Origin: Actinomycetota bacterium
GTDB taxonomy: Bacteria > Actinomycetota > Acidimicrobiia > IMCC26256 > PALSA-555
DNA: 64,000 nucleotides
Direction of reading: 5' to 3'
Assembly: GCA_003140175.1 (NCBI GenBank)
Contig: PLJD01000069.1
Span: forward strand, 16,093 to 80,092
The notes beneath the pieces are model-generated. The model was not told the origin of the DNA. It did not search any database and was given only the letters and a program-made list of their open reading frames with translations. Of this stretch, positions 32,468 through 37,537 are shown in pieces. The position numbers and the translations under genes were made by a program. How positions within the stretch are numbered: the first letter of the stretch is position 1; every line of letters starts with the position of its first letter.

Positions 32468-32522
32468 TCGTCGGCGTTGCGCGTCGGCGCGTCCGCCGAG
32501 CACGAGCGTGCGAGCATGCGGG

Positions 32523-33269
32523 ATGGCCTCGCCGTTGCGGATCGACCCCGACGAGTTCGTCCCGCTGCCGGCGGTCGGGCGTCGCATCACGGTGCGGCGA
32601 ACGGTGCGGCTGCGTGACGTCACCGCGTCGGGGCGGCTGCGCCTCGACGCGCTCGCCGGCTACCTCCAGGATGTGGCGGGCGACGACGTCGACGATGCCG
32701 GGCTGGTCGGCGCGTGGGTGCTCCGCCGCCTCGTCCTGGCCTTCGGCGACCTCCCGACGCTGCGCGACGAGGTGGAGCTGACCACCTTCTGCAGTGGGTA
32801 TGGGAGCCGCTGGGCGGAGCGGCGCACCATCGTCACGGTCGCGGGTCGGGCTTCGGTGGAGGCGGTGGCGCTCTGGGTCTATGTCGACAGCGAGGGCCGT
32901 TCGATGCGGTTGCGCGACTGGTTCTTCGACCAGTACCGGGAGGCGGCGGGTGACCGGCGGGTCACCAGCCGGTTGCGCCTCCCTGGCCGTCCCCCGCCTG
33001 ACTGCGCGGTGCGGGCCTGGCCGTTGCGGGTCACCGACGTGGATGTCCTCGCGCACGTCAACAACGCCGCGTCGTGGGCGGCGGTCGAGGACGAGCTCGA
33101 GCGGCGCTGCCCGGGTCGAGCCCTGGTGCGCGCCGAGATGGAGTACCGGGCGCCGGTGGATCTCGGCGACGCGGTCGTGCTGTGTTCGGCGCTTCGCTCG
33201 GACGCGTTGGAGTGCTGGCTGACCTGCGGCGATGACGTGCGGACGACTGCGATCGTCAGCGTGGGCTGA
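32523..33269 (+). CDS. Acyl-ACP thioesterase-like (hotdog fold) protein
   Basis: VRLRDVTASGRLRLDALAGYLQDVAGDDVDDAGL...WVLRRLVLAFG...VTDVDVLAHVNNAASWAAVEDEL. Confidence 0.85.
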   Translation: MASPLRIDPDEFVPLPAVGRRITVRRTVRLRDVTASGRLRLDALAGYLQDVAGDDVDDAGLVGAWVLRRLVLAFGDLPTLRDEVELTTFCSGYGSRWAERRTIVTVAGRASVEAVALWVYVDSEGRSMRLRDWFFDQYREAAGDRRVTSRLRLPGRPPPDCAVRAWPLRVTDVDVLAHVNNAASWAAVEDELERRCPGRALVRAEMEYRAPVDLGDAVVLCSALRSDALECWLTCGDDVRTTAIVSVG

Positions 33270-33301: not shown

Positions 33302-35305
33302 TCACAGGGCGGCGACCCGAAACGACTCGATGGTCACCTCGGTCGTGGACCAGGCCTGGATGCCGACCCGGTCGCCGCGGCAGGGCTCCCGGCCCAGCTC
33401 GACGGTGCAGCGGCTCAAGCCGGCGACGGTGAGCACGGGCTCCCCGTCGACGACGACGCTCAGCTGGTCGGCGCGCAGCGTCAGCTCGAGGACGTGTCGC
33501 CCGGCGAGCTGGGCGGGGTCGGTGACCGCGGCTTGCGCGAGGGGGCGCCAATGCTGGCGGTTGCCCTCCCAGAGCCGGACGAGGTAACCGCCACCGCCGG
33601 CCACCGGGTCGACATCGAAGGAGTAGCCGGTGATGCGCTCGCCGTCGTCGGTCGAGGCGCGGAACATGATCCCGAAGCCGGATCCGGCGCGGAAGTCGAC
33701 CGTGGTCTCGATGACGCAGTCGGCGGGTGCGCGCAGGTCGGTGAGGGCCCAGCGGGCATCGGCGCGGCGGAGCGCCAACGTGCCGTCGTCGGCCATCGCG
33801 GTCGCGGGGAAGATGCCGCCGATCTGCCAGTGGGCGCCGGCCCGCTCGAAGCGGGGGGTCGGGGCGACCTCGGGCGGGGCGGCCGGGCCGCGCTGGTTTT
33901 CTGCACTCCAGGCGATCGGCGTCACCTCGGGAGCGACCGCCGGGGAGGCGTCGCTGATGGGGGTGGCGATGCGGTGGCCGACGGGGTCCGCGTCGGGCCG
34001 CGAGGGTGCCTCGATGTCGGCGAGGGGGTCGTCCACGACGATGGCATCGAGGACCGAGATGCCCAGGTCGGCGGCGTCGCGTCCCGCCAGCTCGGAGGGC
34101 TGGTGTGCCGGGGTGGGCAGCGCGAACGGGTCGTCGACGAACTGCCCGGACCCGTTCGGGCTCGGGGGGTCGCCGATCGGGTCGAACGGCGAGCGGACGT
34201 CGCTGGGCACGTCGAGCGCGGGGGTGGGTGCTGGTGCCTGGGCGGTCGGAATGGCGAACGGGTCGGGTGGCAGCGGCAGGGGAGCGAGCGGGTCACCGGT
34301 GGGTGCGGGACCGAAGGGGTCCCGGAGCGCGGCCGCGGCGGCGGCGGTGGGGTCGACCGGACCGGCGAAGGGATCGGACGGCCCGATCCCGGGCTGGGGA
34401 CGGGCGGGATCGGCGAACCCGTCCGGGGCGCGTCCCGGGTCGACGAAGTGGGGTGCCGGGGGGGCCGGGGCCGCTGGGGGGGCGGGGAGGTCCGGTGCGA
34501 TCCCCGGCGCGAAGGATTGGGTCTCGAGCGGGGGCCACGCCGACGGTGCGCCCGGGTCGGGCGGGGCGAGGAACGGCGTGCCGTTCGCTGGCGCGGCGCC
34601 GTTGGGCGTCGGGAACCCGTCCGGGTTGGGCGCGGGCGGCGACCCGAACGGGTCGGCGGGGCCGGGCCGGCCGAAGAACGCCTCGACGTCCGGCGGGACG
34701 TCGCCGCCGGCGAGCGAGGCATACGGATCGTTGGGGAGGGCGCCGGGCATCCCGCCCATGCCACTCGGCAAGGACAAGGGCGGCAGGATCATGGCCCGGA
34801 GGCGGGCGGCCTCCGCTGGCGACGCGCCGATGAGCTCGACGAGGCGACGCTCGATGTTTTCGGGTGTGCCGCCGAGAGCGTCGGCGAGCGCGGCGAGATC
34901 GGAGTTGCGCAGCGGGACGCGGCTGCCGGGGGGAAGGTTCCGCAGCTCGTAGATCATCGAGAGGTACTCGCGCAGGAGCCCGTCGGGCTCCCCGGGATTG
35001 CGCAGCCGGCGGACCGTGTCGCCGATGCCGATGGTCGACAAGTCGGAGCTGATCTGCAGCGGGTCGCGGCTGGGGAGCAGCTCGCCCACGTCGACGCCGC
35101 ACGACCCGGCGAGACACCACAGATCGCTCTCGGGGACGGCGACTCTTCCTCGCTCGTAGGCGACGAGTTCCCGGCGGGTCAGGCCCGCGGAGCGCGCCAC
35201 GGCGCTGCGGGACAGACCCTGTTGCTTGCGTACCTGGCGAAGATTGCGGCCCACGACCTTCCCGGAAGGCTGCTCAGCTGCTTCCCGCTCCACCGCTTTA
35301 GCCAT
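33302..35305 (-). CDS. XRE-family HTH protein with long Pro/DPF-rich linker and C-terminal concanavalin/LamG-like region
   Basis: VGRNLRQVRKQQGLSRSAVARSAGLTRRELVAYERGRVAVPE (HTH); repeated DPF motifs; C-term CVIETTVDFRAGSGFGIMFRASTDDGERITGYSFDVDPVAGGGGYLVRLWEG...LELTLRADQLSVVVDGEPVLTV. Confidence 0.85.
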   Translation of the reverse strand: MAKAVEREAAEQPSGKVVGRNLRQVRKQQGLSRSAVARSAGLTRRELVAYERGRVAVPESDLWCLAGSCGVDVGELLPSRDPLQISSDLSTIGIGDTVRRLRNPGEPDGLLREYLSMIYELRNLPPGSRVPLRNSDLAALADALGGTPENIERRLVELIGASPAEAARLRAMILPPLSLPSGMGGMPGALPNDPYASLAGGDVPPDVEAFFGRPGPADPFGSPPAPNPDGFPTPNGAAPANGTPFLAPPDPGAPSAWPPLETQSFAPGIAPDLPAPPAAPAPPAPHFVDPGRAPDGFADPARPQPGIGPSDPFAGPVDPTAAAAAALRDPFGPAPTGDPLAPLPLPPDPFAIPTAQAPAPTPALDVPSDVRSPFDPIGDPPSPNGSGQFVDDPFALPTPAHQPSELAGRDAADLGISVLDAIVVDDPLADIEAPSRPDADPVGHRIATPISDASPAVAPEVTPIAWSAENQRGPAAPPEVAPTPRFERAGAHWQIGGIFPATAMADDGTLALRRADARWALTDLRAPADCVIETTVDFRAGSGFGIMFRASTDDGERITGYSFDVDPVAGGGGYLVRLWEGNRQHWRPLAQAAVTDPAQLAGRHVLELTLRADQLSVVVDGEPVLTVAGLSRCTVELGREPCRGDRVGIQAWSTTEVTIESFRVAAL

Positions 35306-35383
35306 AGGTCGCGTATCGGCGCGGCGGCGGCGCCCCTAAAGGGCGTATGGTCCGGCGCCCGACGGACCTGGAGGGAGCACACG

Positions 35384-36154
35384 ATGGCTGAGCAGGGATC
35401 CGGCTTCGACGGCAAGGTGGTCCTGGTCACCGGCGGCGCCTCGGGCCTCGGCCAGGCGGCGGTCGGCCTGCTCGTCGGCCGCGGTGCCCGGGTCGTGGTG
35501 GCCGACCTGCAGCGGGACCGGGGCGAGCAGGTCGTGGCCGACGCCCAGGCGGCCGACGGCGAGGCCGTGTTCTGCGCCACCGACGTCACCAAGGAGGAGG
35601 ACGTCGCCGCCGCGGTGGCCACCGCGCTCGACACCTGGGGTCGTCTCGACGGTGCCCTCAACAACGCGGGGACGACCGGCCCGTCGAACACCACGGTGGA
35701 CTACACGCTCGAGGACTGGAACCGTGTCCTGACGCTGAACCTGACCTCGGTGTTCCTCTGCCTCAAGCACGAGATCCCACCCATGGTCGCTCAGGGCGGC
35801 GGCGCGATCGTGAACACGTCGTCGGGAGCCGGCCTGGTCGGCTTCGCCGGGCTGCCCGCCTACGTGGCGAGCAAACACGGCGTGATCGGCATCACCCGCG
35901 CCGCGGCACTCGAGTATGTGCGCAGCGGTGTGCGGATCAACGCCGTGTGTCCGGGGAGCACCCGCACCCCGATGCTCGAAGGGTTCATGGGTGGCGACCC
36001 GGCCATCGAGCGGGCGATGGCGCAGTCCGCCCCGATCGGACGACTGGCCCGCCCCGAAGAGATCGCCCAGGCCATGGTGTGGCTGCTGTCCGACGCCGCG
36101 TCGTTCATGGTTGGCCACGCACTCGCGGTCGACGGCGGCGCCGTCGTCATGTGA
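35384..36154 (+). CDS. SDR family oxidoreductase
   Basis: FDGKVVLVTGGASGLGQAAVGLLVGRGARVVVADL...YVASKHGVIGITRAAALEY...HALAVDGGAVVM. Confidence 0.95.
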   Translation: MAEQGSGFDGKVVLVTGGASGLGQAAVGLLVGRGARVVVADLQRDRGEQVVADAQAADGEAVFCATDVTKEEDVAAAVATALDTWGRLDGALNNAGTTGPSNTTVDYTLEDWNRVLTLNLTSVFLCLKHEIPPMVAQGGGAIVNTSSGAGLVGFAGLPAYVASKHGVIGITRAAALEYVRSGVRINAVCPGSTRTPMLEGFMGGDPAIERAMAQSAPIGRLARPEEIAQAMVWLLSDAASFMVGHALAVDGGAVVM

Positions 36155-36163
36155 CCCGATCGC

Positions 36164-36976
36164 TCAGATCTGGTCCCACACCATCGCGTCCTCGGTCGGC
36201 GCGTCGCCGAGCATCTCCACCGGATCGTGCTTGTCGATGTGGCCCATCAGCCCCGAGTAGATGCCGTAGCCGACGAGGCGTCGCAGCCGCGGCGAGAAAC
36301 CAGCCGCGATCTCGCGCGGGACGCCCAGCTGCTGGTTCTCCTGCTGGCGGATCCAGCCGGCGCAATAGTTCATCGCGATGCCGATGCGGCGCTCGTCGGT
36401 CTGGTTGGCGCCACCCCCGTGCCAGAGGCTGCCGTGCCAGACGAGCACGCTCCCCTTCGGCATCTCGGCGGGGATCGAGTCGTACGCCGAGACGAAGTCC
36501 GGTGAGCAGTCCGCCCGGTGGGTCCCCGGGATGATCCGCGTCGCGCCGTTGCGTTCCGTGAAGTCGGTCAGCGCCCACATCGTGTTGCACACCGTCGGCA
36601 CGTGCGGCTTGGGCAGCGGGATGAGCTGGTCATCCGCATGGATGGGCTGTGCCTGCTCGCCGGGCAGGATCGTGATCGAGGACAGCGACGACACCAAACA
36701 GCCCGGATCGAGCACGCGCTCCACGACGGGGAGCACCTCGTCGTAGACCGGGACCTGCTCGTACAGCGGGCCGAAGGCCAGGAGGTTGTACACGCGCAGC
36801 GTCCGCGATCCCTCAAAGCTGTTCTCCGACGGTTGGATCTCATAGCCGCGCTCCAGGCGACCCAAGTCCTCGGCGAGCGCGTCGATGAGGGCAGGGTCGA
36901 TCGCGTGCTCGAGAATCGTGTAGCCGTCGCGTTCGATGGCGGCGACGTGCTGGTCGATCACGGCAGCGTCGGGCAC
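36164..36976 (-). CDS. Phytanoyl-CoA dioxygenase family protein
   Basis: VPDAAVIDQHVAAIERDGYTILEHAI...IHADDQLIPLPKPHVPTVCNTMWALTDFTERNGATRIIPGTH...VLVWHGSLWHGGGAN. Confidence 0.94.
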   Translation of the reverse strand: MPDAAVIDQHVAAIERDGYTILEHAIDPALIDALAEDLGRLERGYEIQPSENSFEGSRTLRVYNLLAFGPLYEQVPVYDEVLPVVERVLDPGCLVSSLSSITILPGEQAQPIHADDQLIPLPKPHVPTVCNTMWALTDFTERNGATRIIPGTHRADCSPDFVSAYDSIPAEMPKGSVLVWHGSLWHGGGANQTDERRIGIAMNYCAGWIRQQENQQLGVPREIAAGFSPRLRRLVGYGIYSGLMGHIDKHDPVEMLGDAPTEDAMVWDQI

Positions 36977-37000: not shown

Positions 37001-37537
37001 GTGCCCCTCTACGCGCTCGGCGACGCCGTCCCCGACGTGCACCCCGACGCCTGGGTGCATCCCGACGCGACGCTGATCGGCAGCGTCAGGGTCGGGGCGG
37101 GCTCCACCATCTGGCCCCAAGCCGTCCTGCGAGGCGACTACGGGTGGATCCGCATCGGGGAGCGCACCTCGGTGCAGGACGGCACCGTCATCCACTGCAC
37201 CGCCGAGCTGCCGACGGTGATCGGGGACGACTGCGTGATCGGCCACCTCGCGCACCTCGAGTGCTGCACGGTGGAGGACCGGGCGTTGATCGGCACGAAC
37301 TCGGTGGTGCTGCATCGGGCCATGGTCCGCACCAACGCGCTGGTCGGCGCGAGCGCGTTAGTCCCCAACGACATGGAGGTTCCGTCCGGGGCCATGGCCC
37401 TCGGCGTGCCCGCCCGGCTGCGCCTCGACGCGGTGACGCCCGACATGATCGTCCCGAACGCCGCCAACTACGTGCGCAACGGGCGGCGGTACGCGGCGAC
37501 GCTGCGCCGGGTCGACCCCGACGCGGCGCGCGGCTGA
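37001..37537 (+). CDS. Gamma-carbonic anhydrase family protein (left-handed beta-helix)
   Basis: IGSVRVGAGSTIWPQAVLRGDYGWIRIGERTSVQDGTVIHCTAELPTVIGDDCVIGHLAHLECCTVEDRALIGTNSVVL. Confidence 0.93.
   Translation: MPLYALGDAVPDVHPDAWVHPDATLIGSVRVGAGSTIWPQAVLRGDYGWIRIGERTSVQDGTVIHCTAELPTVIGDDCVIGHLAHLECCTVEDRALIGTNSVVLHRAMVRTNALVGASALVPNDMEVPSGAMALGVPARLRLDAVTPDMIVPNAANYVRNGRRYAATLRRVDPDAARG

Follow-up and report, generated by a model that had tools for sequence, protein, structure and literature searches.

BldD is a textbook transcription factor, dimerised by tetrameric c-di-GMP. Its signature for this ligand, RXD-X8-RXXD (R114, D116, R125 and D128), is shared by all BldD homologs, and mutation of either motif abolishes c-di-GMP binding, the mutation of motif 1 alone being a swap of R114 and D116 (PMC4151990). 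Carbohydrate-binding modules of the CBM66 type and the C-terminal modules of GH32 enzymes are described in a different setting, attached to enzymes. The protein presented in this study joins a BldD-like half to a domain of the latter fold.

The protein is encoded on the minus strand of the window, by which we mean the whole stretch of 64,000 nucleotides that was analysed (Table 1). An earlier note, made from the sequence alone, had delimited this ORF and its 667 residues exactly and had left out the strand; the plus-strand frame across the same positions is a shadow frame. The HTH, the five DPF motifs and the C-terminal segments that it quoted are all found in the protein. Its outline of HTH, Pro-rich linker and concanavalin/LamG/DUF1080-like C-terminal domain holds, but it overlooked a second folded domain between HTH and linker, as well as the membrane-anchored relatives and a version at the same locus that consists of the C-terminal domain only. 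It also called the architecture unfamiliar. It proved to be rare: six Acidimicrobiia genomes carry it in full, all at the same syntenic locus. Although the assembly behind the window is a draft in 128 contigs, the reading of two genes joined through an assembly error is therefore refuted, as five other genomes have this ORF uninterrupted and flanked by the same neighbours. Genome-wide statements made here rest on pattern and profile searches.

Table 1. Features of the regulator gene and its surroundings, in positions of the window
Feature	Position	Strand	Basis
Whole ORF, 667 aa: HTH, BldD-CTD-like domain, disordered linker, CBM66-like domain	33302..35305	-	syntenic orthologs in G001, G003, G005, G007, G011
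XRE/Cro-C1 HTH DNA-binding domain, residues 17-78	35072..35257	-	HTH_31 37.2 bits, HTH_3 32.8 bits
BldD-CTD-like domain, helical, residues 80-175	34781..35068	-	NF050110, hhalign, PDB profile matches
Degenerate c-di-GMP signature R122-N-L124-X8-R133-N-S-D136	34898..34942	-	alignments
Pro/Ala-rich acidic linker, presumably disordered, residues 181-480	33866..34765	-	composition, poor alignability
Short linear motif V..FF.......D.F at linker start, residues 207-220	34646..34687	-	V, F, F, D, F shared by all 6 orthologs in the alignment
Five DPF motifs, residues 218-394	34124..34654	-	starts 218, 311, 329, 348, 392
CBM66/DUF1080-like concanavalin-type beta-sandwich, residues 486-667	33305..33850	-	AF2, Foldseek, profiles
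Promoter-like element CTTTAG-N15-GCCGATA, just upstream of ATG	35314..35341	-	conserved, 15-base spacer exact
Divergent SDR oxidoreductase gene, syntenic neighbour outside mechanism	35384..36154	+	
Convergent acyl-ACP thioesterase-like gene, syntenic neighbour outside mechanism	32508..33269	+	
PhyH-like dioxygenase, syntenic in several relatives	36164-36772		
Gamma-carbonic anhydrase, syntenic in several relatives	37029-37537		

The HTH and the BldD-CTD-like domain

The N-terminal domain is certainly an XRE/Cro-C1 HTH, as had been read from the sequence: HTH_31 and HTH_3 both score above their Pfam cut-offs, and the domain has a PDB match. It is nearly invariant in the alignment of the window family. 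The AlphaFold2 (AF2) model of the first 190 residues has a pLDDT of 67.5, with the HTH good and the CTD moderate; the AF2 models of this study were built on shallow alignments (7 and 4 sequences). What Foldseek matched in it were HTH domains, among them the DNA-binding domain of BldD (4ob4), on which the HTH model superposes with a TM-score of 0.79 by target length and 38% identity. Among the matches listed, the CTD of the model was unmatched to BldD CTD structures.

Alignment of the family with related regulators nevertheless brings out residues 80-175 as another conserved block, which contains the pattern R-x-x-X8-R-x-x-D. The NCBIfam model of BldD, NF050110, matches residues 16-158, HTH and CTD together (E 2.3e-10, 40.4 bits). 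This is below its equivalog cut-off of 250 bits, but the canonical BldD of the same genome also stays under it (151.5 bits), and the cut-off alone is thus not decisive in this class. The Pfam family BldD-like_C (PF21179) did not match the window protein with E values up to 1, versus 72.3 bits for the canonical BldD. Comparison of profiles found the CTDs to be homologous, which places the protein in the BldD superfamily as a paralog: hhalign of the family CTDs against canonical BldD CTDs gave a probability of 94.4% (E 8.5e-8) with the two signatures in register, and the family CTD profile found BldD CTD structures in the PDB at E 1e-4 to 7e-4, among them 5tzf and 4oay at E 1e-4 to 5e-4.

The window protein shares with Streptomyces BldD the order of HTH and CTD, and it retains the equivalents of R114, R125 and D128 with the X8 spacing. 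It departs from the master regulator in reading RNL-X8-RNSD in place of the RXD-X8-RXXD of BldD orthologs: the D116 equivalent is Leu, also in all six aligned orthologs. It further differs in its linker and CBM66-like domain. An intact BldD is encoded elsewhere in the genome (G000:C27), with RQD-X8-RRDD and matches to Streptomyces BldD CTD structures at E 1e-12. The sequences therefore identify the window protein as a BldD paralog and not as the genome's BldD.

Membrane-anchored paralogs in Acidimicrobiia

A profile of HTH and CTD was searched class-wide, in 296 genomes. Canonical BldDs scored about 60-78 bits, and a separate set from about 29 genomes in ten families scored at least 80 bits. 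The R, R and D of the signature are kept in all 23 paralogs outside the window family that were read, and Asp stands at the D116 position in a single one of them (L157). In 21 of the 23, a hydrophobic segment follows directly after the CTD (Kyte-Doolittle (KD) value of at least 1.6, taken here as a TM segment), mostly with only a short tail behind it. These paralogs thus have in common with the window family the HTH, the CTD-like domain and the loss of D116, whereas the window family has no TM segment at that place, where its sequence is Pro-rich, and carries instead the linker and the beta-sandwich. No description of TM-anchored BldD paralogs was found among the open-licence PMC papers searched.

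In the maximum-likelihood tree, the paralog clade stands apart from canonical BldD with support of 100/100. The window family forms one group (100/99) nested within the TM-bearing paralogs (81/87 for the nesting). By parsimony, the TM segment would have been lost and the linker and C-terminal domain gained in the lineage of the window protein, a direction that hangs on the moderately supported branch (81/87). Several paralogs of the class-wide set (L148-L170) have a short motif in the tail, for example IGDAIVIERGD; the stretch VLDAIVVDDP in the linker of the window protein may be what is left of such a motif.

The window protein has no TM segment by 19-residue Kyte-Doolittle mean (maximum 1.24), and by inspection its N-terminus lacks signal-peptide character. 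Both agree with the absence of TM segment and signal peptide stated in the earlier note and support the cytoplasmic topology that it had predicted.

Linker, C-terminal domain and locus

The linker is, as proposed, rich in Pro (25%) and Ala (18%); it has 37 acidic versus 9 basic residues and no TM segment. From this composition and the poor alignment between orthologs it is presumably disordered. The DPF repeats had been considered a multivalent binding feature. Their presence in the window protein is indeed non-random (five observed versus 0.35 expected in shuffled linkers, with none of 5000 shuffles reaching five), but their number is not conserved: five copies occur in the window species, G001 and G003, and one in G005, G007, G011 and G012. 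Multivalency was thus discarded as a defining trait, being present in three of seven members. What is conserved in the linker is instead the V..FF.......D.F motif near its start and, in most members, a P-I-x-W motif seen by eye shortly before the C-terminal domain.

The beta-sandwich that the earlier note had likened to the concanavalin/LamG/DUF1080 group was borne out by structure prediction. AF2 on the alignment of the C-terminal domain gave a pLDDT of 89.8 and a pTM of 0.89, and in a Foldseek search of the PDB the first matches of this model were CBM66 of Bacillus subtilis (4b1m and 4azz, E 4e-8 to 2e-7). The TM-score to 4b1m is 0.67-0.70 by query and 0.75-0.80 by target; galactocerebrosidase, VIP36 and galectins match lower down. 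The predicted structure is therefore a beta-sandwich of the ConA-like kind, nearest to CBM66. Across 10 members, the C-terminal domain has 36 invariant positions. PF06439, the 3-keto-disaccharide hydrolase family formerly named DUF1080, is sub-threshold or weak in seven of the 10. The window domain alone scores 19.9 bits, under the gathering score of 26.8 bits; on this ground a catalytic 3-keto-disaccharide hydrolase was ruled out. The likeness to CBM66, the GH32 C-terminal module and PF06439 is one of fold (Foldseek E about 1e-7), with weak sequence similarity, and that the ligand might be a glycan is a guess from the modelled fold. Unlike the CBM66 and GH32 modules, the domain is predicted to be cytoplasmic and is fused to a DNA-binding protein. 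No description of an HTH-CBM66-type fusion was found among the open-licence PMC papers searched; for this fusion as for the TM-anchored paralogs, such a result is weak evidence of novelty.

The profile of the C-terminal domain found matches in 12 of the 296 class genomes: those of the window family, a single genome from a second family, and two that hold remote relatives. One of the latter (G027, L044:7876-9930) is a single ORF with an ECF-type sigma factor, a zinc finger, a hydrophobic segment, a Thr/Pro-rich stretch and the relative of the C-terminal domain. It resembles the window protein as a regulator bearing such a domain, and differs in the hydrophobic segment before it, which suggests an extracytoplasmic location there. 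The other (G057, L074) is a pilin-like protein, with N_methyl just under the cut-off and a C-terminal PF06439 match above it. Together, the two suggest extracytoplasmic use of the domain in these relatives. Outside the class, a phylum-wide search found the C-terminal module (Pfam Glyco_hydro_32C region) of a GH32 enzyme (L141:439-2004).

The gene lies in a conserved order of gamma-carbonic anhydrase, PhyH, SDR, regulator, acyl-ACP thioesterase, acyl-CoA dehydrogenase and ArsC-like genes. Because it is divergent from the SDR gene and convergent with the thioesterase gene, this synteny looks positional rather than operonic. The named relatives are MAGs (Baikal-deep, LaPlata, PFL8, DeepCast/Offshore casts), from lake water in our reading. 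Two sister species (G004 and G006) have at the orthologous position a protein of about 220 residues with the C-terminal domain only (L040:8113-8775 and L041:10215-10883, the N-terminal half missing), and this domain can therefore persist without the DNA-binding half. A member from another family (G012) has HTH, linker and C-terminal domain without a clear CTD-like domain. The modules are thus separable, and an obligatory signalling path from HTH to C-terminal domain is hypothetical.

The promoter-like element CTTTAG-N15-GCCGATA precedes the gene in all eight homologs with the N-terminus (once as GTCGATA), implying a probably leaderless transcript from its position just upstream of the ATG. Its sole exact match in the genome is the one upstream of the regulator gene. 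The -10 part resembles the flagellar/WhiG consensus (PMC8325347), and a FliA/WhiG sigma factor is encoded in the genome. With up to two mismatches allowed, TAAA-N15-GCCGATAA has 29 sites in the genome versus 30 for the reversed control; with no excess of sites and an element unique to the regulator gene, the sigma-28/WhiG reading was set aside as tentative. An autoregulatory operator is less likely, because the element persists in a changed form before the C-domain-only genes of G004 and G006, which have no HTH.

Possible control of the regulator

Computation established the domain identities, the loss of the D116 equivalent, the kinship to TM-anchored paralogs and solubility as judged by sequence. 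On this basis, we think it somewhat probable that the window protein is a soluble cytoplasmic regulator derived from a BldD paralog, with no canonical c-di-GMP gating and under the control of its C-terminal domain, our confidence coming mostly from the first half of the following mechanism. The HTH would bind a conserved operator as a dimer, and the CTD-like domain would dimerise without the canonical tetrameric c-di-GMP glue. The C-terminal domain, on its Pro-rich tether of about 300 residues, would then exert control through the binding of a glycan or sugar-like ligand in the cytoplasm or of a partner protein, and would in this way replace the membrane tether of the relatives.

A regulator that still responds to c-di-GMP in the manner of BldD, through R122, R133 and D136 and perhaps in a partial mode, with the C-terminal domain as an accessory, appears unlikely to us. 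Such a protein would be consistent with the conservation of three of the four signature residues and of the X8 spacing across the paralog clade, with 17 GGDEF matches in the genome and with the presence of Ala at position 116 in the BldD CTD construct that is the top PDB match of the profile. However, D116 is present in all BldD homologs, and the motif 1 mutation abolished binding (PMC4151990); here Leu replaces it in the six aligned orthologs, and 22 of the 23 outside paralogs have a residue other than Asp. Less probable still, and in our view hardly to be expected, is that the C-terminal domain acts outside the membrane, as it seemingly does in the two remote relatives, in which a sigma factor with zinc finger and hydrophobic segment (G027) or a pilin-like N-terminus (G057) stands ahead of it. 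The TM anchors in relatives of the BldD-like half would fit this location, but the seven full-length members have no convincing TM segment (maximum KD of 1.2 to 1.9, highest in a Pro-rich stretch), and where the relatives have their TM helix, the window family has a Pro-rich sequence.

ConA-like folds serve as protein-binding modules too. The C-terminal domain may accordingly be a docking module rather than a sensor of sugars or other ligands, and the linker a scaffold gathering partners at the DNA, an idea to which the short motifs conserved in an otherwise variable linker and the DPF repeats in three species lend some weight. Nevertheless, the closest folds are carbohydrate-binding or glycosidase modules, the profile reaches the GH32 C-terminal module and the number of DPF motifs is not conserved; we regard docking as possible, if rather doubtful. 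The soluble regulator controlled through its C-terminal domain remains the reading that we prefer.

For BldD-type regulation in general, these paralogs, mostly membrane-anchored and with one of the four base-reading residues nearly always gone and the other three fixed, provide a natural series on a signature without D116. The same series bears on how this type of regulation was rewired. We tentatively propose that in the Acidimicrobiia clade control may have moved to the membrane while the c-di-GMP site was altered, and that one lineage, so far known from lake metagenomes, may then have swapped the anchor for a lectin-like domain that stays in the cytoplasm at the end of a disordered tether. 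The outcome would be a transcription factor whose gating depends on a glycan or sugar-like ligand inside the cell. The window protein represents an unusual end point, a carbohydrate-binding-type fold placed in the cytoplasm on a DNA-binding protein, and its ligand and output are therefore directly assayable.
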